From assembly GCA_026390495.1 (NCBI GenBank), contig JAPLFV010000278.1:1-32301 (forward strand): DNA of 32,301 bases. Reading direction: 5' to 3'. This document shows positions 14,809 to 31,143 of this stretch, in pieces (the first letter of the stretch is position 1; each line of letters begins with the position of its first letter). This DNA comes from Pseudomonadota bacterium. GTDB taxonomy: Bacteria; Bdellovibrionota_B; Oligoflexia; Oligoflexales; RGVZ01. The position numbers and the translations under genes were made by a program. The notes under the pieces are model-generated. The model was not told the DNA's origin. It saw nothing but the letters and a program-made list of their open reading frames with translations, and ran no database searches.

Positions 14809-15747
14809 ATGCAAACAAAGTTGACTCATCTTCGCGAACACATAGAAAAACTATATTCGTTTTCAGTCGTCGCAAGAACTGGCTCGCTGAATCAAGCCAG
14901 CCACAATCTTCGCTTGAGTCAAGCGGGCCTCTCACACAGCATAAAGGTGCTGGAAACATGCCTAGACACGTCTCTTTTCATCCGTACAACCAAAGGCATG
15001 ACTTTAACCAGATCCGGAGAGATTTTATTAGACTATTGTCGCAAGCTATTTTTTGAATTGGACGCTCTTGAAATTGAAGTCAAAAACCCAGACGCTCAAA
15101 AAGAATCTATTGCGCGAATCGGCACGCACGAAACCCTTGCCATACATGTTTGGCCTGAATTCATTGCAAAACTAAAACAGCGTCATCCTTCTTTGAACAT
15201 ATCTTTGAACAGCGGTCGGGTCACCAGCCTTATGCAAGGACTGAAATCGGATAAACACCATCTAATCGTAACCGTAGAACCAACTGATGATTCTGAAACT
15301 ATGCGGATTCCACTGTATAAGGGCGATTTTGGATTTTATGTTTCAACAAAAAACGGTCCCTATGCCAAATGGCCAAAAGCAAAGTCTATTAAGTCGGAAG
15401 ATTTAGTTAAGCATCCAATGTTCACAGACACGCATGCTGAGATAAAGCAAGGTGCATCCATTCCAAACTATTTAATGACTCAGGGATTTGATTTTGAACA
15501 ATCATTTGAGGTTTCTAGCTTTGAGTCATCCATTCAATTAGCCACAAGAGGCCTTGGCGTCGCATTTTTGCCACAAAGAAATGCTAAACTAGCAGTATCC
15601 AATGGCCTTCTTCGCAAATTAAGGATTCGAGGAGTATCAGAACAAGGCTTTGGTCAGTACCAAATTTGCGCGACATTTTTAAAGGCCAATGCAAAAATAA
15701 AGGTCATTGAAAGCATACTTTCCGAGTTAAAATCTAATTTTATATAA
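14809..15747 (+). CDS. LysR family transcriptional regulator
   Basis: The protein has 312 residues, the usual LysR length. The N-terminal winged helix-turn-helix spans about residues 14-75 (FSVVARTGSLNQASHNLRLSQAGLSHSIKVLE, then the wing with RTTKGMTLTRSGEILL). The C-terminal two-lobed ligand domain has the expected IGTHETLAIHVWPEF opening. I chose ATG 14809; a GTG at 14779 in frame lies inside a perfect palindrome and has no ribosome site. It is divergent from the MFS transporter gene and probably controls it. The effector is unknown. The potassium channel gene follows after 35 bases on the same strand and may be cotranscribed. Confidence 0.9.
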   Translation: MQTKLTHLREHIEKLYSFSVVARTGSLNQASHNLRLSQAGLSHSIKVLETCLDTSLFIRTTKGMTLTRSGEILLDYCRKLFFELDALEIEVKNPDAQKESIARIGTHETLAIHVWPEFIAKLKQRHPSLNISLNSGRVTSLMQGLKSDKHHLIVTVEPTDDSETMRIPLYKGDFGFYVSTKNGPYAKWPKAKSIKSEDLVKHPMFTDTHAEIKQGASIPNYLMTQGFDFEQSFEVSSFESSIQLATRGLGVAFLPQRNAKLAVSNGLLRKLRIRGVSEQGFGQYQICATFLKANAKIKVIESILSELKSNFI

Positions 15748-15782
15748 AGGCATCTGAACCAGTCAGAAGCGTGGAGGAATCA

Positions 15783-16316
15783 TTGAATCACAAAGCACCA
15801 AAATCAAGGCATCGGCCACTATCACAGATTCGGCATTTACCACGAACTGGACTTCTCTTAGGAAGTCGATTTGCCGCATTGACTAAATTCCCCATTTTTA
15901 TCTTGCTTACTTTGGTCGTCCATAGCGTGATATTATTTTGCGCGTGGGTTTTCTACCTATTGGAATGGGGCCACAATAACAAGCTCGTATCGTTTATCGA
16001 CGCCCTCTTTTGGTCTGTTGCAACTGTAACAACTGTAGGTTATGGCGATATCGTACCCATAACATTCTGGGGCAAAGTTCTTGCCATGTTTACCATGATT
16101 TTTGGCTCCCTCTGCCTAGTTCTCTACACTGCTTTTTTTGCTGGCGCTTTGATTGCACCCGAGCTCAATCAAGTTGAATCCAAAGTTAAGAATATGGACG
16201 ATGAGGTCAAGGAGGTCACTCGAGAAATTAAATCTGACGAGGAGATTCAAAAGGTGCTCTTAAATCGGATAGAAAATCTAATTTCCAAAATCGACAAGGG
16301 TTCAAGATCGTCATAG
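15783..16316 (+). CDS. Two-TM potassium channel
   Basis: The protein has 177 residues. TTG 15783 follows GGAGG at five bases; a GTG at 15771 would start in front of that site. Helix 1 is about residues 37-60, the pore helix 70-81, the selectivity filter TVGYGD 84-89, and helix 2 about 97-122. TVGYGD is the potassium signature. The C-terminus (about 128-175) is a charged, heptad-like coiled coil (ELNQVESKVKNMDDEVKEV), which would help tetramers form. No RCK/TrkA domain is attached, so gating is not by the usual ligand domain. It is an inner-membrane tetramer. Physiological role unknown. Confidence 0.9.
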   Translation: MNHKAPKSRHRPLSQIRHLPRTGLLLGSRFAALTKFPIFILLTLVVHSVILFCAWVFYLLEWGHNNKLVSFIDALFWSVATVTTVGYGDIVPITFWGKVLAMFTMIFGSLCLVLYTAFFAGALIAPELNQVESKVKNMDDEVKEVTREIKSDEEIQKVLLNRIENLISKIDKGSRSS

Positions 16317-16361
16317 AATTTTGCCGAACTCATTTGGGCTCCCATCCCCAAGCAAAGCAGC

Positions 16362-16739
16362 CTATTTTCGTCGGCGTCTTATTGCAAATATTACAGATAC
16401 TATAATCGCTAGACATAAGCTTAGTAAACTGACGCTTGCAACCAGCATGGACCATCCATAAAAGGGCACGTATTTCACAGAGGAATATCGCACAATAGCA
16501 CCAAGAGGCCAAGCCAGCTGCCAGGCATACCAGCCCAAAAATAAAATCAGTAGAAACCCAGGCGCGATCAAAATCATTTTTTTGGACGTTAAATTCTCAT
16601 AATCATCAATTCCCTTAAATGATTTTTTTTGTCTTGAGCTAAGATCGCCTTTGATCATCACCACGCTTCCAGCGAACAGGAAGCTAAATAGTGCAGATAG
16701 AAACAAACTATAGGCAGTAGCAATGTAAATTTCGTTCAT
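16362..16739 (-). CDS. Small membrane protein, hypothetical
   Basis: The protein has 125 residues with about three hydrophobic helices (near 5-28, 54-76 and 94-118) and a basic C-terminal tail (RRRRK), which predicts a cytoplasmic C-terminus. A G-run (GGGGG) sits about seven bases before the ATG. It lies 87 bases downstream of the MocR-type gene on the same strand and is convergent with the potassium channel gene. I do not recognise a family. Confidence 0.65.
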   Translation of the reverse strand: MNEIYIATAYSLFLSALFSFLFAGSVVMIKGDLSSRQKKSFKGIDDYENLTSKKMILIAPGFLLILFLGWYAWQLAWPLGAIVRYSSVKYVPFYGWSMLVASVSLLSLCLAIIVSVIFAIRRRRK

Positions 16740-16759
16740 TCAAGAACCCCCAAACAATG

Positions 16760-16777
16760 TTTCAAATCTCTTTGAAA
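16760..16777. other. Inverted repeat TTTCAAA/TTTGAAA
   Basis: A perfect 7-bp inverted repeat, TTTCAAA (16760-16766) and TTTGAAA (16771-16777), with loop TCTC. It sits between the MocR gene stop and the start of the small membrane-protein gene. It may be an operator or an mRNA hairpin; without a T-run it is not a clear terminator. Confidence 0.35.
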
Positions 16778-16826
16778 TGCCAGTTCTTTCGATTTCGATC
16801 ATTCCTTACCGACAATGACCGCGCCA

Positions 16827-18257
16827 TTAATACTTAGCTTTTCTAATGGCATTCTCAACTCTCGGCAAGACCTCCTTCAATTCACTTAGGTTCAGCGACG
16901 AAAAGCCAAACCTTAGGTGAGTTGAGCGGTGACCATGGAATCTAAACTCTGATTCTGCAGAAATCTTAATGTTTCGTTTGAGGAGTTCTCGCGAAATTTC
17001 ATCAGCATCCCGCCTGGTATCAACCCAAACACATAAACCGCCATTTGGAGTATTGAATTCAATATTCAAAGAGTCTTTCCACCTTTGTAGGGCTTCAATC
17101 AAGAAATAATAGCGTTCCTGGTAAATGCGTCGCATGCGCCGCAAATGAACAAGAAAGGTGTCGTTTCGCATCCAGGAGGCCACAGCAATCTGCGCCAATG
17201 AATTGGTTTGCCTATTCAGTGTTCTCTTCAGAAAAGACAGTTCATCAGAAAAGTTTGGATGTGTCGCAATGGCGCCCAATCTAAGTCCCGGAAACAAAGA
17301 TTTGGACATTGAACATACGTAGAATGAATTTGCACATTGGGTCGAAATTGATGGCGGAGGTATTTTTGTGTAATGAAAATCATAGTCAAAGTCGTCTTCA
17401 ATAATGGCAAAATGATTCTTAAGAGCCAAGGATGACAAAATCTGACGCCTTTGAAATGACAATGCCACCGTTGTCGGGTACTGATGGAGAGGTGTCAAAT
17501 AGACAGCTTTTATTCTATGCTTCTTCACATATTCTGCAATTTCCAGGACACTAAGCCCTTCAGAATCCAAGGTAACATACTTTATTTTTACTCCCATTGA
17601 CTGAAAAATATCTCGGATTGGCGGATATCCCAATTCCTCCATGACAACTGTGTCACCAGGCTGACACAGCATTCTAGTCAATAGGAATACCGCTTCTTGA
17701 GATCCGTTGGTAATCAATAACTCTCTTTTTGCAATTCCACGGCTTTTTAACAAATGTTCTTGGTACTGCTCTCGAAAAGCTTTGATTCCATTCGGCTCTC
17801 CATATGTGAGATTTGCTGCAAAAGTCTTTTTTAGCCCTGCGCCAACTGCTCTGCGAAAATCCTCCATTGGAAACAATCGCAAATCGGGGTTACCTGCATT
17901 AAATTCAAAACCACATCTAACTTGCTCTGGCTCTGGCGATCTAGGCTTAAAACTGGATAGCTTCAATGTATGATTGCCAAGAATTTGTTTCTGAGATGAA
18001 TCAACGAATAGAAGAGGCACATCTTTAGAGACTCGATATCGCTTCCGCTCGTTGGATTCTAGCCATCCTTCGCGAACCAGTTCACGCATTGAATTCAGGA
18101 CAGTTAATCGGCTGCATCGAAATTTTTTTGCGAGATCTCTTGTAGATGGTATGGTTTCAACTTCTACATAATGTCCACTTTGAATCAAATCGATAATATA
18201 TTTTTGGATTATTTTTGATTTTGTTTTCAATCTAAAAATCGGATACCTAGGTTTCAT
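16827..18257 (-). CDS. MocR/GabR-type regulator (GntR wHTH fused to aminotransferase-like domain)
   Basis: The protein has 476 residues, the usual MocR length. The GntR winged helix-turn-helix is at about residues 12-78 (TIPSTRDLAKKFRCSRLTVLNSMREL). A class I aminotransferase-like domain follows: TPLHQYPTTVALS, EDDFDYDFHY (287-296) and SMSKSLFPGLRLG, where K319 is the expected PLP lysine. MocR proteins are PLP-binding transcription factors that control vitamin B6, amino-acid or GABA metabolism genes. ATG 18257 has AGGTAA upstream. It is divergent from an acetyltransferase gene across 144 bases that hold four CTGGTA boxes, so it probably controls both itself and that gene. The effector is unknown. 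Confidence 0.92.
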   Translation of the reverse strand: MKPRYPIFRLKTKSKIIQKYIIDLIQSGHYVEVETIPSTRDLAKKFRCSRLTVLNSMRELVREGWLESNERKRYRVSKDVPLLFVDSSQKQILGNHTLKLSSFKPRSPEPEQVRCGFEFNAGNPDLRLFPMEDFRRAVGAGLKKTFAANLTYGEPNGIKAFREQYQEHLLKSRGIAKRELLITNGSQEAVFLLTRMLCQPGDTVVMEELGYPPIRDIFQSMGVKIKYVTLDSEGLSVLEIAEYVKKHRIKAVYLTPLHQYPTTVALSFQRRQILSSLALKNHFAIIEDDFDYDFHYTKIPPPSISTQCANSFYVCSMSKSLFPGLRLGAIATHPNFSDELSFLKRTLNRQTNSLAQIAVASWMRNDTFLVHLRRMRRIYQERYYFLIEALQRWKDSLNIEFNTPNGGLCVWVDTRRDADEISRELLKRNIKISAESEFRFHGHRSTHLRFGFSSLNLSELKEVLPRVENAIRKAKY

Positions 18258-18281
18258 AATTTACCTCAGCGAGCTCAGTAT

Positions 18282-18356
18282 CTGGTAAACAGATTATTTT
18301 AGTGCCTGCATCTGGTATAGTATAATTATTAAAACTGGTATATTGCAACATACCAG
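18282..18356. promoter_or_regulatory. CTGGTA box array and divergent promoters
   Basis: CTGGTA occurs directly at 18282-18287, 18312-18317 and 18335-18340, and inverted (TACCAG) at 18351-18356. The last two with one more base form a dyad CTGGTAT/ATACCAG. For the MocR gene a minus-strand promoter is visible: -35 TTGCAA (complement of 18343-18348), 18-base spacer, -10 TATACT (complement of 18319-18324). TATAAT at 18321-18326 may be the -10 of the acetyltransferase gene. The core TGGTAT is the complement of ATACCA, the direct repeat reported for Bacillus GabR. Boxes overlie both promoters. Confidence 0.7.
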
Positions 18357-18401
18357 CATAAAGCATTAGATTTCACCTTATCAACAATGAGGAGTAATCC
18401 A

Positions 18402-19016
18402 ATGGACAACATTGAATGGTCAAAGCCAGTCATTTTGAAATCAAGACGAGTTCACCTAGCACCTACAATCATGGATCATCTTGATGGTCTCTGTAATGCT
18501 ATCCTGACAGGAGTTTCCTGGCACATAGATTTCTGGCCATTAAATTCAAGGCAGCAAATTGAGGCAAAAATCCTGAATGAAGCAATTCTAGGTCGAAAGC
18601 AAAGGGAGTTTAACTGCTTTACCATTCAATTGGCAGAGTCCCAAGAAATTGTCGGAATGACCTCCTTGCGAAGCTTCAATCAAAGACATAGCAATTTGGA
18701 GATTGGAGCAAGTGTCGTCGGATCCAAATGGCAGCGAACATTTGTCAATACAGAAGCAAAAGGTCTACTGCTAAAGTATTGCTTTGAAGACTTGAAGGTT
18801 AACCGAGTATTCTTCAATGTCGATTCCTTAAACTTTAAATCTCATCAAGCGGTACTCAGATTGGGCGCCAAATATGAAGGAGAATTGCGCCATTCATGGA
18901 TTCAGCAGGATGGTGTGCGACGAGATCGCAAGATCTACTCCATTTTGGACTTTGAATGGCCTTCAATCCAAAAACACTTGAATTGGCTGTTGAAATGTCA
19001 CGATCAGAGATCTTGA
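18402..19016 (+). CDS. RimJ/RimL-like GNAT N-acetyltransferase
   Basis: The protein has 204 residues. ATG 18402 follows AGGAG at seven bases; an ATG at 18387 would begin before that site. The pattern matches GNAT acetyltransferases of the RimJ/RimL type: IGASVVGSKWQRTFVNTEAK, the RVFFNVDSLNFKSHQAVLRLGAKYEGELR stretch split over the acetyl-CoA site, and a terminal RDRKIYSILDFEWPSI. Such enzymes acetylate protein N-termini, amino acids, antibiotics or polyamines. The divergent MocR regulator suggests an inducible detoxifying or metabolic role, but the substrate is unknown. Confidence 0.9.
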   Translation: MDNIEWSKPVILKSRRVHLAPTIMDHLDGLCNAILTGVSWHIDFWPLNSRQQIEAKILNEAILGRKQREFNCFTIQLAESQEIVGMTSLRSFNQRHSNLEIGASVVGSKWQRTFVNTEAKGLLLKYCFEDLKVNRVFFNVDSLNFKSHQAVLRLGAKYEGELRHSWIQQDGVRRDRKIYSILDFEWPSIQKHLNWLLKCHDQRS

Positions 19017-19041
19017 GACATGCACTGGCTTCGTCATTGCC

Positions 19042-19066
19042 TTAGGTTTTGATTTACAAAACCTAA
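19042..19066. terminator. 10-bp hairpin between convergent genes
   Basis: Arms TTAGGTTTTG (19042-19051) and CAAAACCTAA (19057-19066) are perfectly complementary around loop ATTTA. It lies after the acetyltransferase stop and beyond the NHL lipoprotein stop. No T-run follows on either strand, so terminator function is a guess. Half of it belongs to the pbpC-end copy at 19051-19091. Confidence 0.45.
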
Positions 19067-19091
19067 CTCACTTCAACACGCTTAGTCGCAA
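19051..19091 (-). repeat. Direct repeat copy A: relic of the pbpC 3' end
   Basis: 41 bases match 22573-22613 in the same orientation with five differences. In the reverse direction it reads as the last codons of pbpC: KRVEVS then a stop, compared with RRVEVSAVL in pbpC. It has no promoter or start and lies between two convergent genes, so it is a remnant or duplication, not a gene. Confidence 0.75.
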
Positions 19092-19167
19092 ATCCTGTTT
19101 TTTATTCTAGATAAAACACGACAAATTGGATTTTTGGCCGCGGCACTTTCCAAGACCACCAAGATGT

Positions 19168-22100
19168 TTACGGCGCGGGACGAACGATGATACGGTTGTT
19201 TGATTTGTCTGAAATGAATATTTGTGCTCCCAATTTAATGATAGACGCAGGTGCATTTAGAGACGTTTCCGAAAAGCCCCCAAAGTTAACGGTGTTGGTC
19301 GTCAAGGTTGTTTGACCCAAAACTACATCCGCGGCCTGTCCGTTTGTTGTAGGAATTGTATTCCAAACTAAAATTCTATTGTTTCCGCCGTCTGCAACAT
19401 AGAGCTTGGTACCATCGCTATAAACGGAAGTTGGACTTGACAGGCTAGACGCGGAAACACCGCCATTATTGGCAGTATTGCTGGTCAGATTTGGCTGACC
19501 AAGCGCAAAACTAGCGGACTGTCCGGATACCGTTGGCATCGCGTTCCATACCAGAACTCTGTGATTGGAAGCGTCAGCAATAAACAGTTTGGTACCGTCG
19601 CTAAAAATGCCGGTTGGTCCTGATAACGTAGATCCCGACAGCCCTCCAGTATTTGCGGTTACAGTCGTCAAATTCGGTTGTCCAAGTGCGAAATTCGCGG
19701 CTTGACCAGAAGAAGTCGGTAGGGCATTCCAAACAAGGACTCGGTGGGATGTCAAATCTGAGACGAACAACTTCGTGCCGACACTAAATACATCTGACGG
19801 TACATCAAGTCCCGTTGCGGTGAATCCTGAGGTATTTGAAACAAGATCAGGTTGCCCCAAGGCAAAGTCCGCTGCCTGACCATTCGACGTCGGAATGGAG
19901 TTCCAAACCAATACTCTGGCATTTGTCGAGTCTGCCACAAACAACTTTGTGCCATTCGAAAAAACTCCGTATGGGTTACTCAATGTCGACCCGGATATAC
20001 TTGGAGTGTTGATCGTTCTCGTTGAGAAGCTGCTCTGACCCAGCACCACGTTAGCAGCCTGCCCAGAAGACGTAGGAATGCTATTCCAAACCAGAATTCG
20101 GTGATTTATCCGATCAGCAACGAACAGTCTTGTACCGTCACTTTGAATAGCTTGAGGTGATCTCAAACTATTGGATGCAGGCAGCACATGATTTGCTGTT
20201 GACTGTGAAAAATCTGTCTGACCGAGAACAAAACTCGCGCTTTCACCGGAGGTAGTAGGAATCGAGTTCCACACTAGAACACGATTGTTTACATAGTCAG
20301 CGACAAACAATTTTGAGCCGTCACTGTAAGTGGAGCAAGCGAAATTTACAGTAGATCCTGAAATGCCTCCATTATTTCCTGTGTTTGAACTAAAATTGGG
20401 CTGACCTAACACATAGTCTGCGGCCTGCCCAGTTGTTGTCGGAATTGTGTTCCAAACAAGAATCCGACTATTGAACATGTCCGCTACAAACATTTTTGTA
20501 CCCACAACAAAAACGCCGTATGGTTGGTTCACTGAAGTACTAGACAATCCGCCGCTATTAGAAGCGAAAGATGTAAAGTTAGTCTGCCCTAGAACCAAAT
20601 CCGGAGCCTGCCCGGAAACAGTTGGCATGGTGTTCCATATCAAAATTCTATTGTTATAAGTATCTGCAACAATCAATTTTGTGCCGGTGCTATACACTCC
20701 ACCGGGTAAATACAGCCCGGTTGCGGTGGCACTCGACGAAACATGCGCGACTAGATCGACCTGACCTAAAGCAATGTTGGCTGGCGCAGCTGTGGAGGTC
20801 GGAATGGTATTCCAAATTAAAATCCGGTTATTACTGTAGTCAGAGACGAAAAGCCGAGTGCCATCGCCAACCACGGTCCACGGACCATTTAATGTAGTAG
20901 CTGAAGCACTCCCTCCTCCGCCATTTGCGGTCATTGATGTAAAATTAACTTGTCCCAAAACAAAATCAGCAGCTTGACCTGAGCTTGTGGGAATTGAGTT
21001 CCACGCAAGAACGCGGTTATTTAGACGATCAACAACAAAGAGCTTCGTACCATCACTGTAAATTCCAGTTGGAGTATTCAAGGTTGACGCAGATATTCCT
21101 CCGTTGTTTGCGGTCGTAGAAAACAAATCTGGCTGACCCAAAGCAAAACTCGCGGCCTGACCCGAGGCCGTCGGAATAGTATTCCAAACAAGAACTCGAT
21201 GGTTCCCACTGTCACAAACAAATAGCTTTCCACCTACGATTATTGTCGACACAGGTGTGCTCATTCCTTTTTCCATATGCGCCATTGACACCGACGATGA
21301 CTGACCGAGTGCAAATGTTCCGCGCAGAGTAAGATTGAAGGAGCTTTGCGCGCTACGATTAGATGAATTTGAAACAGTAACCGTAAGCGTCACATTTCCA
21401 ACAGCAGTTGAAACTGGGGTCACAACTGCTGTGCATGTCGGATAGGTGCCGCCCCATACAACGCTTCCTGGCAAAACTAAAGAATGGTCTGAAGATGATA
21501 GACTTAAAAATGAACTGCTACAGTCCAACGTAGAACCTGTGTCGCCGATGGTAAAGGGAATCGCGGAGGTCGACGAATTTACATCGACACTTTGCGTTGA
21601 AATGGCGGAAATTGTAGGAGTCGTCAACGCTACGGAACCAGAGGTCGCCGTTGATGCCACGCCATTTATGACTAACGCTTTATTTGCGCCAAGGCTATTG
21701 GCCTCACCAGGACCGGGCAATTTCAAACTCACGGAAACTCCAAAGCTGTCAATAATAGTACCTGAATTCAAAGCCAGAGAGCTCGTCGACAGGTAGTCGA
21801 GATCAGTTGAGGAATGAGCAGATGCGACGGTGTAATTAAATGTCAACGTCTTGCTTCCGCTTCCAGCAGAGTAATCTACAATGGCATCCACGGAACCCGT
21901 CTCAAGAGTTAATGAAGGATTTCCTTTGACAAAAACCACCTCCGAAAAATTGACCTGAATCGCAATGGCATCGCCTGTGATGTATCTGCCGTCCGCTTTG
22001 TCAGCGGAAACAGAGATTAGTTTTACATTAGAAGCTGCATTTTTTTTGCCGGTTCGTTTTGAGATCTTAAATGAAGATTCACATCCAAACAGCAAAAGCA

Positions 22101-22188
22101 AAAAAGTAAAAACCTGAATCGCGATTGTACAAGACAAAATTCTAAAGGAAGGTTTTTCACCATATTTGAAGACTTGAAACAGCTTCAT
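19168..22188 (-). CDS. Lipoprotein with about 12 NHL-like beta-propeller repeats
   Basis: The protein has 1006 residues. ATG 22188 has AAGGGAA upstream; an in-frame ATG at 22218 has none. The signal peptide ends in lipobox LLFGC with Cys 36. Residues about 55-165 form a beta module (GDAIAIQVNFSEVVFVKG, then LTFNYTVA and LDY) of the bacterial Ig-like type. A linker with two Cys follows. From about residue 300 to the end there are some 12 repeats of about 60 residues with the NHL core: GTKLFVADxxNNRVLVWNxIPT, then GQAAxFxLGQ. Twelve blades would fit two six-bladed propellers. It is probably anchored to the outer membrane and binds protein or polysaccharide. The gene is bracketed by copies of the pbpC 3' end. 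Confidence 0.9.
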   Translation of the reverse strand: MKLFQVFKYGEKPSFRILSCTIAIQVFTFLLLLFGCESSFKISKRTGKKNAASNVKLISVSADKADGRYITGDAIAIQVNFSEVVFVKGNPSLTLETGSVDAIVDYSAGSGSKTLTFNYTVASAHSSTDLDYLSTSSLALNSGTIIDSFGVSVSLKLPGPGEANSLGANKALVINGVASTATSGSVALTTPTISAISTQSVDVNSSTSAIPFTIGDTGSTLDCSSSFLSLSSSDHSLVLPGSVVWGGTYPTCTAVVTPVSTAVGNVTLTVTVSNSSNRSAQSSFNLTLRGTFALGQSSSVSMAHMEKGMSTPVSTIIVGGKLFVCDSGNHRVLVWNTIPTASGQAASFALGQPDLFSTTANNGGISASTLNTPTGIYSDGTKLFVVDRLNNRVLAWNSIPTSSGQAADFVLGQVNFTSMTANGGGGSASATTLNGPWTVVGDGTRLFVSDYSNNRILIWNTIPTSTAAPANIALGQVDLVAHVSSSATATGLYLPGGVYSTGTKLIVADTYNNRILIWNTMPTVSGQAPDLVLGQTNFTSFASNSGGLSSTSVNQPYGVFVVGTKMFVADMFNSRILVWNTIPTTTGQAADYVLGQPNFSSNTGNNGGISGSTVNFACSTYSDGSKLFVADYVNNRVLVWNSIPTTSGESASFVLGQTDFSQSTANHVLPASNSLRSPQAIQSDGTRLFVADRINHRILVWNSIPTSSGQAANVVLGQSSFSTRTINTPSISGSTLSNPYGVFSNGTKLFVADSTNARVLVWNSIPTSNGQAADFALGQPDLVSNTSGFTATGLDVPSDVFSVGTKLFVSDLTSHRVLVWNALPTSSGQAANFALGQPNLTTVTANTGGLSGSTLSGPTGIFSDGTKLFIADASNHRVLVWNAMPTVSGQSASFALGQPNLTSNTANNGGVSASSLSSPTSVYSDGTKLYVADGGNNRILVWNTIPTTNGQAADVVLGQTTLTTNTVNFGGFSETSLNAPASIIKLGAQIFISDKSNNRIIVRPAP

Positions 22189-22572
22189 TTTTGATTCCCT
22201 TTTAGTGTCACCAGCCAATCCATGAAAAGTGGAATTGGGGACCCAAGTTTTGCACCAATACTATATAGGGATTCGGCATCTATCCTAAAAAACTAAGTGA
22301 CACCTGGTTTGGATATCTAACTATCTGTAAATATTGCGTTTAAAAAACCCAAGGGACTCACGAATGGAAGATTTACAAGTATCACCCGAGAGCATTGCGC
22401 TGGAAAACTCAGTACTTTGCACGAGCTGAATCTAGAGGGGTTGGATTAACTTTATAATCAACCCTAGACCATTGTGGATTAACCTTATTGATCGTAAAGC
22501 AGAATATTGAAATGCATCACCCAAGCCATTCCAAATCAGTGTCCTCTTAGGATCCATCTAACTCAAGACGTC
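22189..22572. other. Intergenic region upstream of the NHL lipoprotein gene
   Basis: No convincing gene. A 21-codon frame (22364-22429, +) has AAGGGA upstream but no similarity that I recognise. GGATTAAC occurs twice (22443-22450 and 22476-22483), each followed by a TTAT...ATC pattern, 33 bases apart, so it could be a tandem regulator site. The promoter of the NHL gene (minus strand) must lie here. Confidence 0.4.
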
Positions 22573-22613
22573 GATTTACAAAACCGCACTCACTTCAACA
22601 CGCCTCGTTGCAA
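22573..22613 (-). repeat. pbpC: Direct repeat copy B: functional pbpC 3' end
   Basis: This is the last 38 bases of pbpC plus the three bases after it. It matches 19051-19091 with five differences in 41. Because this copy is in an intact gene, the other is taken as the derived one. Confidence 0.75.
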
Positions 22614-25050
22614 CTCGGCCCTTTTCGTCTACAACTCTGACGTCAAAGACACCCGGTTTATAGTCCCACATGAGAGTTTTTTCCGAATGAGAACCTGAGG
22701 GATTGGATGAACCGATAAACACATCATCAATAAACCAATTCAAAGTTCCACTATCCGGCAAGCTCTTTGCATCCAATGGCAATGCATCACTGGTTCGCAA
22801 TGATTCAATGGGCCTCTTGTAAATGAGATATGCTTGCGGTGACGTGATCTCAAGATCTACGAACTCTGGTTTTGAGCCTGACTCTACGACTGACGTTTGA
22901 GCGCAGCCACTTTCGAATGGTGGCAATGTTCCAATTTTTATGCCGACTTTTGCCAAATACTGATAAACATGACTAGGCCACATTTCAAAAGATTCTGCGC
23001 GATACTGACTCGGATCCAAACTTGAAACATCTAAAGGGCACTTCAATTTGCCAGTGTGAATATTGACTTCATACCGACCGTGAATGGGGCATGGCCTATA
23101 GGGCGACACGCCCGGAATTGAGTCCACCAACACTGTTTGATTGCAACCAGGGCCAGGTAGATCTCCAGAGAGAGCACAAACTTTCAATCGAACCAAATTC
23201 AAATCCTTCGTTTTTTTAGAAAGTTTTACCGAAGGTATTGATTTCAGGGAGGACAAAACGTCGGAAACTTTAAACCATAAAGGAGCTGCGACTTCGCGCC
23301 CTACGAGACTGTTGTTTGGGATCCCTTTAAAATCTCCCAACCAAACTCCGATAACATATTCGCCCACGGTTCCAACTGTCCAAGCATCGTGAAATCCAAA
23401 GGACGTTCCGGTTTTCCAAGCAGCCTTATCTTTATTCATAGATTGGTCAGTCGTTTGGCTTCCTCGCATCACAATATCGTCAACGCGATTCTGAGTTTGG
23501 AGCATCTTTTTGACAATCAAATTTGATTCGGGACTTAAAAATTGAGAGTCGATCTTATCAGGAAAATTAGCTTGATTAGGGGATTGCAGGAAATGTAACC
23601 TCTTCACTTTGCCTTCTTGAAAAAACATTGAATATAACTGCACCAATTCCCACATTGACATCTCTACCCCACCAACTGCCATCGGTAGACCATAGGCACT
23701 AACGTCACGCTTTAAGGAAACCCCCGCATTCAATAATCGATCATACAATTGGTTCACACCAACTTCTTTTAAAAGAGCAATTGCCGGAATATTGCGGCTA
23801 CGTGTTAATGCTTCGGTAGCAGAAATTGGACCTACAAAATCACGATCATAATTTTCTGGATCATAGACACCATAAGAGTTAGGAACATCAAAGAGCACTG
23901 ACTGGGAATTGATGATTCCCGCATCCAGTGCCAATCCAAAAATAAAAGGCTTAAGAGTTGAACCTGGAGATCGTTTAGCTCGTATCCCGTCTACTTGACC
24001 TTGAATGGAAGTATCAAAAAAATTAGCCGAACCAATGTAGGATTTAACAGTCATCGTTGGACCGTGAACAACCAAAATGGCTCCGTTATTAATTTTATTC
24101 TTTGCAAGGACTGAAAGTTCTTGGGTAAGAACCTCTCTTAAGGTCCGTTGCAAACTCAGATTCAAAGTGGTTTTTACTGTTCCAGAGCTATAGACCGTAG
24201 GAGACGGAATCATCGCTTCCAATCTTTCCGTTAAATGTGACGCTTGGTGTAACAGACTTTGAGAGGCGGCACCTTGAATGGATTGCGCCTGCTCCCATAA
24301 CTGATCGCATTGAAGTTTGGGAATATGTTGTTCAGAACAATAGGATCTGGTCAATAGCAGCAAACTCTTCAAATGAGTCGACGTAAGAACATTTGCGTTG
24401 GATAAATCCCTATGAACGGGATTCTGTGGCACCAATACAAGTCTAAGAGCCTCTGCTTCAGTCAGATCTATGGACTCTTTATTAAAGTAGATCCAGGATG
24501 CCGCTCCGACTCCCTCGATGCTGGCTCCGAAAGGAGCCAAATTGAGATAGCCTTCCAGAATCTCATTTTTTGACAAATGGGATTCCAAGCCAATAGCTAG
24601 CCAAATTTGCTTTAACTTTCCTGCCGGTGTCTTCGTATCCAGTCGCCAAATCATTCGAGCTAATTGCATTGAGAGGGTTGAACCGCCACCTGCTCCGGAT
24701 TGACTTCGGAAGTACTGCCATGCAGATCTAGCAACTGAAAGGTAATTAATGCCAGGATGAAAGTAAAACCAGCGATCCTCTTTCAATATCAATTGAGTCT
24801 TCAGATGATTTGGAAATCCATCAAGGCCAGTCCACAATCTAAATCGCCCATCTTTTGAGGTTGTCAAACGCAAAAGGTCTCCTCTTTCATCGGTGTAAGC
24901 CTTTGAAAAAGTCATTTGCCGAATAACACCAAGGTCAGTGCTATGATATGCAATCTGCTGCACCAAAAAGAGACCTATAGCGTAGGCTGCGGTCAAATAG
25001 AACAGTCCAGATCGCAGGCCCCTAGCGAGCTTTAATAGTGATTGATCCAC
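22576..25050 (-). CDS. pbpC: Penicillin-binding protein 1C (glycosyltransferase/transpeptidase)
   Basis: The protein has 824 residues. It is a class A PBP anchored by one N-terminal helix (about 14-33). The GT51 glycosyltransferase has EDRWFYFHPG (catalytic E91) and GAGGGSTLSMQLAR (119-132). The transpeptidase has SPGSTLKP (Ser364, Lys367), SRN (418-420) and KTGT (546-549). A C-terminal domain (about 735-824) corresponds to the PBP1C-specific BiPBP_C domain. All catalytic residues that I can place are present, so it should be active in periplasmic peptidoglycan synthesis. It starts at GTG 25050 with AGAGG upstream and overlaps the A2M C-terminal ORF by 29 bases, so the two are translationally linked. 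PBP1C commonly pairs with bacterial alpha-2-macroglobulin. Confidence 0.95.
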   Translation of the reverse strand: MDQSLLKLARGLRSGLFYLTAAYAIGLFLVQQIAYHSTDLGVIRQMTFSKAYTDERGDLLRLTTSKDGRFRLWTGLDGFPNHLKTQLILKEDRWFYFHPGINYLSVARSAWQYFRSQSGAGGGSTLSMQLARMIWRLDTKTPAGKLKQIWLAIGLESHLSKNEILEGYLNLAPFGASIEGVGAASWIYFNKESIDLTEAEALRLVLVPQNPVHRDLSNANVLTSTHLKSLLLLTRSYCSEQHIPKLQCDQLWEQAQSIQGAASQSLLHQASHLTERLEAMIPSPTVYSSGTVKTTLNLSLQRTLREVLTQELSVLAKNKINNGAILVVHGPTMTVKSYIGSANFFDTSIQGQVDGIRAKRSPGSTLKPFIFGLALDAGIINSQSVLFDVPNSYGVYDPENYDRDFVGPISATEALTRSRNIPAIALLKEVGVNQLYDRLLNAGVSLKRDVSAYGLPMAVGGVEMSMWELVQLYSMFFQEGKVKRLHFLQSPNQANFPDKIDSQFLSPESNLIVKKMLQTQNRVDDIVMRGSQTTDQSMNKDKAAWKTGTSFGFHDAWTVGTVGEYVIGVWLGDFKGIPNNSLVGREVAAPLWFKVSDVLSSLKSIPSVKLSKKTKDLNLVRLKVCALSGDLPGPGCNQTVLVDSIPGVSPYRPCPIHGRYEVNIHTGKLKCPLDVSSLDPSQYRAESFEMWPSHVYQYLAKVGIKIGTLPPFESGCAQTSVVESGSKPEFVDLEITSPQAYLIYKRPIESLRTSDALPLDAKSLPDSGTLNWFIDDVFIGSSNPSGSHSEKTLMWDYKPGVFDVRVVDEKGRVATRRVEVSAVL

Positions 25051-25816
25051 CTTTGCCTCTAAAAATTTTATCTTCTATATACATCGATTTCGCATAAGTA
25101 GGTGGTACGTAAAATGTTCCCGAAGCCGTTGCGCGAATCTTATAAAAAATTTGAGTCACCTCATCCAACAAACTTCCATAGACAACGACTCGGTCTTCCC
25201 TGGCATCGATATTTTCAAATCTGAAATTTGAAATTGAACCGAAGTTTGGACCCGCAAATGCCTTTGTCACGCCTAATAATCTATCAAAAATTGACCCAAA
25301 ATCGCCTTCTCCGGAACCCTCTTCCGGCATTCCCCCCTCTACATCTCCCTCTTCTCGCTGAATTTCATCCTCGTAAGGAGACGAATGACTATCTCCGGCA
25401 CTGACTATCTGAGATGGCAGGGAATCAAGTTGTAGCTCTGTTCCTCCTGGAAGTAGGTCGACAATAGCCATGTTCGACAAAGTCCCTTTTAGAGAACGCG
25501 CCAAAACTCGTACTTCGATCTCATCTCCCACTACAAATGAATCTGACTCCTTACCATTGACAACGTAGTAGCGTTTCAGCTCCATGCCGTTTTCAATTTC
25601 TTTAACAGATTTTTCTCGATCAAATCCATTCTGCACAATATTCATGTAGATCGGAAGTGCCCCGCCACTCCTGTTTATCGAAATACTTTTGGCTTCCACA
25701 GGAATATTTCCGGTCAAAATCGACTCGCCAGAAAGCTTTACATCAAAAGATTTATTGGATTGATCCATGAAAGACGATGAAAAATCCTTTGTTGCACTCG
25801 CACCATTCAGTGGCAA
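25022..25816 (-). CDS. Alpha-2-macroglobulin C-terminal fragment (separate frame)
   Basis: 264 codons from a TTG without a ribosome site, overlapping the 3' end of the large A2M ORF by 10 bases in another frame. The end, GTFYVPPTYAKSMYIEDKIF, is the typical final segment of bacterial A2M. The frame extends upstream to codons AGWTALAIGAYSS, which continue the thioester-domain helices of the large ORF. An acidic insert (EDEIQREEGDVEGG) lies near the middle. It is thus the missing C-terminus of the A2M protein after a frameshift near 25857-25864. It has no signal peptide, so alone it would stay in the cytoplasm. It may be produced by frameshifting, be phase-variable, or reflect a real disruption or a sequencing error. 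Confidence 0.75.
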   Translation of the reverse strand: MPLNGASATKDFSSSFMDQSNKSFDVKLSGESILTGNIPVEAKSISINRSGGALPIYMNIVQNGFDREKSVKEIENGMELKRYYVVNGKESDSFVVGDEIEVRVLARSLKGTLSNMAIVDLLPGGTELQLDSLPSQIVSAGDSHSSPYEDEIQREEGDVEGGMPEEGSGEGDFGSIFDRLLGVTKAFAGPNFGSISNFRFENIDAREDRVVVYGSLLDEVTQIFYKIRATASGTFYVPPTYAKSMYIEDKIFRGKGGSITIKAR

Positions 25817-28800
25817 CGAGCTGTAGGCGCCGATAGCCAGCGCCGTCCAACCTGCAATATATATGTGTTATGTCTTTGGTCAGATAACAATGTAGCCAAT
25901 GATCCTATGTATTCTGCGGCATCTTTTCCGACTAAATTTGGAAAATGCTTGGACATGAGATAGATATACTGGGACTTCAAACTATCAAGGGAGTGATAAA
26001 ATGTTCCTGTTGAAGGCAATTCACCAACGGATTTGAAGGATACATTTTTAATGATTCGGTCAGCATCTTTGTCCATGCCTCTAAGCTTATATGACGATGC
26101 GATATATACTGCCGATAGAGACTTCGTCCAATTTAACTCCTTTGATACCGGCAAATTCTTTGAAAAGTCCTCGTATACTTCGTGCAAAAATTGCGCATTA
26201 ACCAATCCTGCTCTCGCAAGTATGTAAGTAGAAAACGCAACGTCTAACTGTCCACTTGGATTTCGATTGACGCGATTAGACCTGATATACTCGGTTATAT
26301 GATTCATTAGTTTTTGAAACGAGCTATCGCGCTTCATAACTTTAGAGTCCAACATTTCCACGTATAAAAGACCTACGTATGCATTCAACATACCTGATTG
26401 AGCGCCATTAGAATTCCAATATCCGAATCCACCAATCATGGACTGGCGCGTTCGAATCATCGCATTTGCCTTCTCGAGAAATGCAATGGATTTTGATTTG
26501 TCACTAATAATTTCCTTGTTATTGACGAATGCCACGATCGGTAGGGACTGGCTTGTAATCTGCTCCGTACACCCATGAGGATACGCCTCTAAAAAACTGA
26601 CGAGTGCTTGAGCAAATCCAAGTGGCAGAGAGCTAAATGACACCTTTCCATCATAAAGCTCATGATACATTTCACGAGTCACTTCAATTTTATCTGACGA
26701 GCCCTTCACAATCTTACTACCCACTGTTGTTGCATAAGGTGTACCTGGGCGAATGCTTAGGGTTTCCTCGTGAATCACAGACTCCGCTGAATTATTCGCT
26801 AAACTAACTTTGAAATTTACAGAATGCGACTTTAAAACCCCTTCAGCCTTAAACTCAAATTTTGCAACAACCTCTTTGCCTTCGGAAACGGTCAACTCTT
26901 GCCTAGGTTTGCTAAGAGTTAAACCCTCGCTTGCGGTCGCCTCTACGATCACTTTGGCATCTTTCCCAGATCCAATCGATTGATTACTAATCGTGACTTC
27001 ACCGACGAATTGATCACCCGGCGCAACGAATAAAGGTAAAACAGGAGAAATGACAAATGAGCCAACCCGCCGCCCTTTAGAACTTGCGGTGCCAAATGAA
27101 GAATCACCTATCGCTACAGCAATGAGCCGATAGGATCCGTTAAAATGTGATGGTAGCTCAACGTCTACAACGTTAACCCCAGCTTTTCCGTCAAATATCC
27201 CGCTCCAAAATGCCGCTGGTGGCAAAGACTTCCTTCTAAATGGATTAATATTCCGGGCCAATGCTCCGTCTTGATCGCCACCTGCAGCGGCCTTCATCGC
27301 AATAGAATACTCCGGAAGAATCAAATCTAAAATCTGCCTTGTTTCCACCTCATGAGCCTTCTTTCTAAAAAAGTGCTTCAAAGGATCCGGATTTCGATAA
27401 CGGGCAACCTGCAAAATACCTTCGTCAACAGCAAACAAGACGACGCGCATTGGCTCACTTAATGTCATATTTACCGGAACTTTGCGATCGGGCTTTGTCA
27501 CTTCTGGATGTTCGAGTTTAATGGACGAACTATAATTCTTAATACTTACCCGCAGAGGAGTAATCGCATAAGAAAGTGATTTTGTATAAATTTCTGGAGA
27601 GCTACTTGATCGCACATGAGTCACGTGAACATATGCGTTTCCAGTGATCCCCTTTGGAATCTTGAATTTTTGCACACTCGATGCCTGTCCCGATTTATAC
27701 CAGGTTGAGCTTAGAACCCTGTCAGACTCGACAGTAATGTAACCAGAGCCAGCATAAGGTGCCTTTATCTCGAGATCTGCCTCTTCACCGATATCATATT
27801 CTTTTTTGGAAAGTTTTAATTTCAGCTCCGAGTTACGATCTAGGCCCCGATCTAAGTCACCTGATCCTGCGATTGAAAAATGAACTGAGGCAAGCGTGGC
27901 TCCATCGCTATTAAAAAACTTAATGTCATAATCTCCAGATTTATCGCTGGGCAATTGATAGCGAAAGCCTTCTGCGCCAATTGAAATATCCTTAGACTCG
28001 ACAATTTCTTCCACTTGTTTTGATTGATATCGATAGAGACCGTCACTACCAGCAACTAAAGTTGACAAATATTTTGTTCGAAACAGTGATAATTTCAGTC
28101 CCTTGGTCTCGACCTTCTGCAGGAGGTTATTGAGCGATATAATATCTACATGTCTCTTTGAATTTTGTTTGATCCATTGCAAATCACCGTCAGACTTCAC
28201 ACCTAAAATATAATCTCGATCTGCAACAATAGCTTGAGCAACTCTAGCAACAAACCGTCCTCCGCTTTTCTCAAACGCCTCTGATACAACTGACAATTTA
28301 TAAAAGCCATTATCGTTATTGAGATCAGGCAAACTCTCAAAAACCATGCCTTGCTCGTCGGTTTCGAAATCTCCAAAAGATCGGTCATTGACCGCATCAG
28401 TTCGACTTTCAGGAAAAAAGAAATTCCAGTCCTCGTAGCCCTTCATTTCTGGAAAGCTTGGAACTAATGAATACTTAAATTGCACCTTATTACCTTCAGC
28501 AGGTCCACCAAAAAGATTTTCAACCTTTGTGCGAACCTTATATTGAGACGGCTTAATCCAAGCCTTCTCCAAAATCTTCGAGGGCAAATCGCCTTTCTCA
28601 ATGACTAAGTCTGTATCCGATTTCAAACGATCTGGCAAAAATTCTTGGATCCTTAGATTCGTAGATCCCACGGTTACTTTTCGTTTATCATCCTTAATCA
28701 TTTGAACCGAAGCTATATATGGCCCGGTCAACCAATGGGTCTCTGTTTTGATGCGATGCTCATCAAAGCCAAATTTCCCAGCCTCAAATGATCGCTTCAA

Positions 28801-31143
28801 TACCTCCTGACCACGTGGATTTGTCAATATCAACTCCAATGGAAGCCCAGCCGGAAGCTGAATCAATCCAGGTCCTTTAATAATTGACCCAACGATCACG
28901 TCCTCACCGGGTCGATATAGTCCTCGGTCAGAAAAGACGTATCCATCTATACTGGAAGGGTCCAGGACTTCTCCGCCAACATCAAATCGACTCGTTGAAA
29001 GTCTGCGCGAAGAATCCCGATTCACTGGAAGAAATGATAGATCATCGTCTCTTCTTGCCGTCCATGCCACGGGTTCATTTTCGGCAGTTAACCCGACAAA
29101 GCTTTTAAACACTGCTGTGCCGTTTGAATCTGTTTTTTGAGAGACCAGCGTCACACCATTTCGCGCCAATAGACCTACATCAACATTCGCCGCAGGCTTT
29201 CCAGAAAGCAACTCCATCACATAGATAATAAAGGTGCCATCTTTATTTCGTTTTGCCATCAAACCTAAATCAGTGACCAGTACAAAGCGCTTATCCTTAA
29301 ATCGCGAGTCGTTAAACTCATATTTATACTCTGGCATAGGCTCATCATCATCATCACTTTGCTCTGCCCGTTTCGATTTAAGGCTTTCAGGATCGTATTC
29401 TTCAATTGCCGCCAGGAAAAGCCCTCGCCTTTTTGTCGACTGATCAACACCGCTATTTGTTCTCAGAAACTTATTGAGGTCCAATCCAAAATAGTTGGTC
29501 TTTGTTTTAACATCACTTTGAAACTCGTGAAAATCCTCGAAGCGCTCCGAGAAATCACTGGAGGAAAAGCTCCAAAAACTTGGGGATGTAAACTGACTTT
29601 CATTGAATCGAACAAAATGATTGAGTTTATCAGGGGCTACCCGATAAAGTGTGGTCTTAACACCTTTAGCACCGTTCGATGTGATGTTAAGTCTTTTTTC
29701 ACCTGCCATCGAAAGCAAAGAGCCCTCATGCATAAATTTTATGTCTGTCGGCACTGCGGGAATTTTCAAAATTCTCTGCCATGTATCCGAAAGTTTATAA
29801 CCACCAAATGCTTCAAGGCCTCGCTTGACAGTTACAAACAAATGTCTTTTTTCCGCTACATCATGTTTAAAACCAATGACAGGAATGGGGGCTTTTTGAT
29901 TAACATCAAGTAAAGAAACCGATAATTTACGCGATTCCTTCAGAATCTTTTCATTGATCTCATTGGCATCCGACCATGCATAATTCATACGCGCTCTAGC
30001 TGCCTCCGGATCATCCGGATTTGAATCACGAGGGTCTTCCGGATTGATGGGCCTATTTATGGGAAGCTCATATAGTTCAATACTCTTGATCAAATCAGAA
30101 GGTTTTAAATTAGTCGTAAATGACACCGCCAATAGTGGCGCTAGATCACCATTTGATTCTTCTTTGATATAAGATGCATTAGCACTAACTACCTTTAAGA
30201 AGGAATCCAAAGCAGGCACTGAGAGAGGTATATCCATCTTCTCGGCAGAATTCCCTCCAAGTACTGACTGAGCCCCTGTATCGATCTTTAAAACCAGCTC
30301 CAACTCCCGCTCGGGTAAAGGTAGATTCTCGCTCTGTATATAGACACCCATGTCAAAGGGCTTATAGTTGAAGGTGACGTCATAAAGGTCTTTTCCTTCT
30401 GCATTTTCAGTATTATTTATCCGTCGAGTGGATCGAGATAATTTCACGGCATTTTCAAATGACTTTCGATCTATGGGATGAGTAAATGAAAGATCATAGG
30501 TCAGAATTTTCTTCAAAGGATCAAATGGATCTTGATAAAATTGCGACTTATTGTTCCTGAACGAAAATTTTGCCGTCGTAAATTCTAAACTGTACGTAGA
30601 TAGTACAATTTTTGAATTCAGAATTCGCTTTTCAATTTTGACAGTATATTTTTGATTTGGCACCCAATCCTTTTCAGGCAGAAACTGCAACTGAGAATCC
30701 CCAATAAAGGACCATGACCCTGCCATTGCAGGCGACAAAACAACTCCCTTATCCAAAGCTTTTCCAACCAAGTCGAGTTTGGCCGCAGAATTCTGAAAAT
30801 TGATAAACAACGTACTTGGCTTTGAGGTTGGACTGTATATTTGAGGGGTTGGCTTGACGATTGTCACTTTTGTAATAACAGGTGGTGGCAATTTCCACCA
30901 ATAATAGCCTCCATAGCTACCTACGCCGATTAAGAGCAATATAGATGTCAATATTGCATAAAACTTAGGGGCACTTTTTTCTTTCTGGCTCAGAATCCAA
31001 GCAAACATTTTTTTAAATGGATAAATCAACCACAAACCAAGAAACATAAGCCACTTTGGAGGAGACCAACTTCCTATCAAAAATTTCAAAATTTTTGAAA
31101 ACGCCGCAACAACTTGCCTAAAAAATTCAGATGCACGAGCCAT
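25807..31143 (-). CDS. Alpha-2-macroglobulin family protein (bacterial, YfhM-like), frameshifted near its end
   Basis: 1778 codons, ATG with AAAGGA upstream. A basic and hydrophobic N-terminus leads to a membrane helix at about 61-82, then YYWWKLPPP, so it is anchored in the inner membrane with the rest in the periplasm (E. coli YfhM is instead a lipoprotein). Macroglobulin domains follow, including SIDGYVFSDRGLYRPGEDV and VLFAVDEGILQVARY, typical of the family. The thioester motif GCTEQ is at about residue 1524, in YPHGCTEQ. This family traps proteases through the thioester and is believed to protect the periplasm. The last 16 residues (LQVGRRWLSAPTARCH) are not family-like: the frame is lost at an AT run and the true C-terminus is in the next ORF. 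Confidence 0.92.
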   Translation of the reverse strand: MARASEFFRQVVAAFSKILKFLIGSWSPPKWLMFLGLWLIYPFKKMFAWILSQKEKSAPKFYAILTSILLLIGVGSYGGYYWWKLPPPVITKVTIVKPTPQIYSPTSKPSTLFINFQNSAAKLDLVGKALDKGVVLSPAMAGSWSFIGDSQLQFLPEKDWVPNQKYTVKIEKRILNSKIVLSTYSLEFTTAKFSFRNNKSQFYQDPFDPLKKILTYDLSFTHPIDRKSFENAVKLSRSTRRINNTENAEGKDLYDVTFNYKPFDMGVYIQSENLPLPERELELVLKIDTGAQSVLGGNSAEKMDIPLSVPALDSFLKVVSANASYIKEESNGDLAPLLAVSFTTNLKPSDLIKSIELYELPINRPINPEDPRDSNPDDPEAARARMNYAWSDANEINEKILKESRKLSVSLLDVNQKAPIPVIGFKHDVAEKRHLFVTVKRGLEAFGGYKLSDTWQRILKIPAVPTDIKFMHEGSLLSMAGEKRLNITSNGAKGVKTTLYRVAPDKLNHFVRFNESQFTSPSFWSFSSSDFSERFEDFHEFQSDVKTKTNYFGLDLNKFLRTNSGVDQSTKRRGLFLAAIEEYDPESLKSKRAEQSDDDDEPMPEYKYEFNDSRFKDKRFVLVTDLGLMAKRNKDGTFIIYVMELLSGKPAANVDVGLLARNGVTLVSQKTDSNGTAVFKSFVGLTAENEPVAWTARRDDDLSFLPVNRDSSRRLSTSRFDVGGEVLDPSSIDGYVFSDRGLYRPGEDVIVGSIIKGPGLIQLPAGLPLELILTNPRGQEVLKRSFEAGKFGFDEHRIKTETHWLTGPYIASVQMIKDDKRKVTVGSTNLRIQEFLPDRLKSDTDLVIEKGDLPSKILEKAWIKPSQYKVRTKVENLFGGPAEGNKVQFKYSLVPSFPEMKGYEDWNFFFPESRTDAVNDRSFGDFETDEQGMVFESLPDLNNDNGFYKLSVVSEAFEKSGGRFVARVAQAIVADRDYILGVKSDGDLQWIKQNSKRHVDIISLNNLLQKVETKGLKLSLFRTKYLSTLVAGSDGLYRYQSKQVEEIVESKDISIGAEGFRYQLPSDKSGDYDIKFFNSDGATLASVHFSIAGSGDLDRGLDRNSELKLKLSKKEYDIGEEADLEIKAPYAGSGYITVESDRVLSSTWYKSGQASSVQKFKIPKGITGNAYVHVTHVRSSSSPEIYTKSLSYAITPLRVSIKNYSSSIKLEHPEVTKPDRKVPVNMTLSEPMRVVLFAVDEGILQVARYRNPDPLKHFFRKKAHEVETRQILDLILPEYSIAMKAAAGGDQDGALARNINPFRRKSLPPAAFWSGIFDGKAGVNVVDVELPSHFNGSYRLIAVAIGDSSFGTASSKGRRVGSFVISPVLPLFVAPGDQFVGEVTISNQSIGSGKDAKVIVEATASEGLTLSKPRQELTVSEGKEVVAKFEFKAEGVLKSHSVNFKVSLANNSAESVIHEETLSIRPGTPYATTVGSKIVKGSSDKIEVTREMYHELYDGKVSFSSLPLGFAQALVSFLEAYPHGCTEQITSQSLPIVAFVNNKEIISDKSKSIAFLEKANAMIRTRQSMIGGFGYWNSNGAQSGMLNAYVGLLYVEMLDSKVMKRDSSFQKLMNHITEYIRSNRVNRNPSGQLDVAFSTYILARAGLVNAQFLHEVYEDFSKNLPVSKELNWTKSLSAVYIASSYKLRGMDKDADRIIKNVSFKSVGELPSTGTFYHSLDSLKSQYIYLMSKHFPNLVGKDAAEYIGSLATLLSDQRHNTYILQVGRRWLSAPTARCH

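Follow-up and report, generated by a model that had tools for sequence, protein, structure and literature searches.

Type I bacterial alpha-2-macroglobulins (A2Ms) carry a CxEQ motif and belong to an A2M-PBP1C operon, as outlined in PMC5764988. Genomic islands and prophages at gene 3' ends are flanked by direct repeats (attL/attR) that copy the end of the host gene. Integrated elements at tRNA genes are described with repeats of 12-98 bp (PMC11476347), and in one account a host gene end, the 5' end of dusA, is replaced by the element's own (PMC8409611). Partial gene duplications and pseudogene end remnants leave short decayed gene ends with stop codons near an intact gene.

The locus that we describe lies in a 32,301-nt stretch of a draft bacterial genome (the window) and resembles each of these systems in part. 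As in the operon outlined in PMC5764988, a CxEQ-motif A2M lies beside pbpC; here, however, the A2M frame is split and an NHL-repeat gene lies downstream of pbpC. As with islands and prophages, the segment is flanked by direct repeats of a host gene end and the distal copy resembles a displaced original end, but there is no integrase, a single gene is enclosed and the repeats have diverged. As with gene remnants, a short decayed gene end with stops lies near the intact gene, though here a hairpin spans the remnant and the spacer of the gene next to it. A limited literature search, mostly of titles and abstracts, found no report of a pbpC end bracketing a segment in this way.

The A2M-PBP1C locus and its relatives

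Profile and motif searches identified a main A2M open frame (25807-31143, minus strand) with a type I-like HGCTEQ thioester motif. This thioester A2M adjoins pbpC (22576-25050, minus strand), as in type I A2M-PBP1C cassettes; pbpC encodes the transglycosylase (PF00912), transpeptidase (PF00905) and BiPBP_C (PF06832) domains of PBP1C. A C-terminal A2M fragment with a bMG10 domain (PF17973) occupies 25022-25816 (minus strand). The A2M is thus split – the main frame ends at 25807, and GWTALAIGAYSS and the bMG10 domain run on in another frame (25807-25860). The break adjoins a ATATATAT run and is either a real frameshift or an assembly error. Five A2M relatives have open frames of 1657-1904 aa.

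A2M matches (E<=1e-40) were present in 6 of 38 genomes, this one included, and in all five of the others a pbpC match shares the contig with the A2M match. At the same threshold, none of five genus mates and none of four other family members has an A2M gene, and the genus mates also lack a close pbpC. On these matches the A2M-pbpC cassette is patchy within the family, and in the absence of a close relative with the locus, no empty site was seen among these genomes. The A2M-pbpC contigs of the five distant relatives carry no NHL match (E<=1e-10); because it is absent from all five, the NHL gene is not an ancient member of the cassette. A search of the draft genome gave no second close pbpC; among the matches listed (7 of 8), those other than pbpC itself reach at most 32% identity. 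The best relative in a scan of genome contigs (3 loci) reached ~33%, and the best in the class ~31% (58 genomes).

A decayed copy of the pbpC end lies beyond the NHL gene

An earlier note on this DNA had proposed that the 3' end of pbpC recurs as a 41-nt repeat in the same orientation with five differences, that the copy encodes KRVEVS and a stop in the pbpC frame, and that the two copies bracket a segment with the NHL gene. Each of these points is borne out. Alignment of the distal copy (19051-19091, minus strand) with the proximal copy (22573-22613, minus strand) gives 36 of 41 identical positions, with differences at offsets 13, 14, 31, 33 and 36 (0-based). The gapped local optimum covers 44 nt at 86% (19051-19094 and 22573-22616). 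Without gaps the repeat stretches to 59 nt at 78%, the weak continuation occupying 19092-19109 on the minus strand. The alignment score of 58 compares with top values of 30 for the pbpC tail in 30 simulated windows and 32 in 100 shuffles of the flanks, and the longest exact run common to both copies is ~16 nt.

The proximal copy is the present end of pbpC, which terminates in VDEKGRVATRRVEVSAVL-TAA (RRVEVSAVL before the stop). Translation of the distal copy in the frame of pbpC gives LE, a stop, KTGFATKRVEVS and a second stop (KRVEVS then TAG); the copy thus holds an extra in-frame stop upstream of KTGFATKRVEVS, and on this translation it is a decayed pbpC end. Eight aligned pbpC relatives all finish no more than a few residues from the same strand, so either stop, TAG or TAA, would be ordinary. 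The copies differ at 13 of 59 positions, of which by our own count 5 lie at first, 3 at second and 5 at third codon positions; neither copy can be called the older from this divergence. A difference of 14% over 44 nt points to a duplication that was not recent.

Across the 4.45-Mb draft (431 contigs), the repeat clearly matches two places, both at this locus; the distal copy is recovered at E 2.6e-8 and the five further rows all have E of at least 1. A pattern search allowing up to 3 mismatches likewise returned two matches, with none for a reversed-pattern control, and the core pattern was absent from all 57 other genomes searched within the phylum. An ordinary dispersed repeat is ruled out by these counts. 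Separately, a candidate pbpC remnant in 19092-19167 was rejected, its score equalling the null median.

The NHL gene belongs to a family within the genome

The NHL-repeat gene (19168-22188, minus strand; PF01436, E 7.7e-23) was listed as an open reading frame of 19168-22218, with the likely start at the ATG at 22188. The N-terminus of its product contains LLLFGC, which we take to be a lipoprotein-like motif. A 354-nt spacer with no other copy in the genome (22219-22572) separates the frame from the pbpC-side repeat and holds just short ORFs of at most 63 aa, leaving the NHL gene as the sole substantial ORF between the repeats. ORF inspection and profile search found no recombinase or integrase gene there. 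A possible NHL remnant within the spacer was rejected: its score of 36 was matched by 100 of 300 simulations.

The suggestion that this gene is acquired cargo finds no support if it is taken to mean foreign DNA. Within its own genome the NHL protein matches 32 stretches, which lie on nine other contigs as well as its own, and the seven other proteins of the genome that were compared with it give 38-53% identity across most of their length. In genus mates G002 and G004 the best rows reach 48-54% over parts, and the C-terminal end of the NHL protein is family-like. GC content is only slightly higher in the NHL gene (46.1%) than in four paralogs (43.6-44.5%) and pbpC (43.6%). Searches with the NHL protein gave no match on phages; against plasmids they gave 29 records, all below 60% identity and none spanning 80% of the query. 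By these measures, the NHL gene is not visibly foreign.

DNA similarity to the fetched paralogs is confined to the gene (19271-21563), and paralogs C40 and C18 lose their mutual similarity a few bases from the stop, so no shared mobile flank is seen. We found no flanking direct repeats above shuffles at any of five loci – paralogs C55, C201, C147 and C130, plus another C201 ORF that the NHL search did not show to be NHL. The C40, C156, C18, C169 and C217 paralogs were left out of this comparison, C40 and C18 overrunning a contig end.

Elsewhere in the family, a Mutator-family transposase gene directly follows the C147 paralog, which ends early (L061:5584-9097), and an AbiEii-type nucleotidyltransferase adjoins the transposase (L061:9024-9641). 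The 138 nt on the far side of the transposase recur at 99% at the start of C169 (L065:1-138), just before or at another NHL match. An insertion sequence may have broken NHL genes. A genus mate carries an open frame of ~11,093 codons (G001:C3:383417-413704) that repeatedly matches the N-terminal portion of the NHL protein (query ~60-280), a candidate giant repetitive surface protein.

A hairpin adjoins the distal copy

Stem search and folding identified a perfect hairpin of 10 bp with a 5-nt loop (19042-19066), in which 19042-19051 pairs with 19057-19066, and the distal copy starts at its apex. The repeat contains the right arm and loop but excludes nine of the ten bases of the left arm, and two neighbouring bases that differ between the copies (TA/GC) fall on paired stem positions 19064-19065; for these two reasons the distal copy appears to sit in an established structure. 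The hairpin begins 26 nt past the stop of a convergent GNAT acetyltransferase gene (18387-19016, plus strand; PF13302, E 1.9e-13). No close relative of this gene was found in the genus, where the remote matches reach at most 31% identity.

Perfect stems of at least 10 bp with loops of 3-10 nt occur twice in the window, both times between genes, against 0.6 expected (20 simulations). From 0.6 per 32.3 kb we calculate a chance of ~0.003 for such a stem in the 151-nt spacer. The hairpin region folds with a z of -2.5 on either strand, compared with 0.3 and 0.7 for the pbpC-side copy. The stem has three G-C pairs and no U-run follows it on either strand, so the hairpin is terminator-like at most; it was not among the calls of a terminator scan, and an Rfam search of 15000-26000 gave no match.

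Origin of the duplicated gene end

We tentatively favour reading the repeat as an old rearrangement scar, in which the original pbpC end was displaced by an NHL segment carrying a second pbpC end. Of the two copies, the distal one is the likelier original end on account of the hairpin. Near it pbpC would once have terminated, with KRVEVS-TAG leading directly into a hairpin common with the convergent GNAT gene. A segment carrying a gene from the NHL lipoprotein family of this same genome would then have inserted at the pbpC end, bringing along another version of the final 44-59 nt of pbpC, one that stops at the hairpin apex, and thereby keeping pbpC intact. A template switch at the hairpin would fit as the mechanism, as would recombination with a donor molecule that bore a pbpC end. 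The displaced end would have decayed afterwards, and the hairpin today lies downstream of both the NHL and GNAT genes. We infer both the order of events and the mechanism. Against displacement, the hairpin could postdate the event, having been shaped by selection or by template-switch correction of a quasi-palindrome, and the U-run of a classical terminator is missing from it. No relative showed an empty site, and neither a donor nor a second pbpC was found in the draft genome.

The same layout would arise without a donor if an NHL-pbpC-end unit was duplicated in tandem and the outer NHL copy was then deleted, the NHL gene having already been the neighbour of pbpC; repeats recombine readily. 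Yet only 34 nt separate the GNAT stop from the distal copy, leaving no room for an NHL remnant, and the hairpin arm next to the copy would have to be there by coincidence; we consider this history rather unlikely. Somewhat more doubtful is copying in the reverse direction, of the pbpC tail into the GNAT-NHL spacer by template switch, with the hairpin arising later through palindrome correction and terminator selection. The ordinary ending of the pbpC-side copy among the eight aligned relatives agrees with such copying, and a replication template switch requires no mobile element, but the left arm would call for a second process.

Site-specific integration at the pbpC 3' end, with an integrase since lost or never present, fits the layout of flanking direct repeats that copy a gene end. 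We regard it as very improbable, given the missing integrase, the single gene, would-be att sites just 86% identical and a site with no other copy in 58 genomes. A shade less credible still is a spread of this lineage's NHL lipoprotein genes one at a time, as units of a single gene that land in the hairpin separating convergent genes and copy the end of the adjoining gene, so leaving the host gene whole. Least probable of all is chance similarity or an assembly artefact: the genome is a draft in 431 contigs, but the score lies far above the nulls, the frame and position are the same, and the shared exact run would be too short for a read misjoin.

As an instance of gene-end duplication, the locus adds one example and no new principle. 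The NHL genes appear to form a surface-protein family that has expanded locally. Should displacement be the right reading, the locus would show a gene of such a family settling beside an A2M-PBP1C cassette with pbpC left unbroken.
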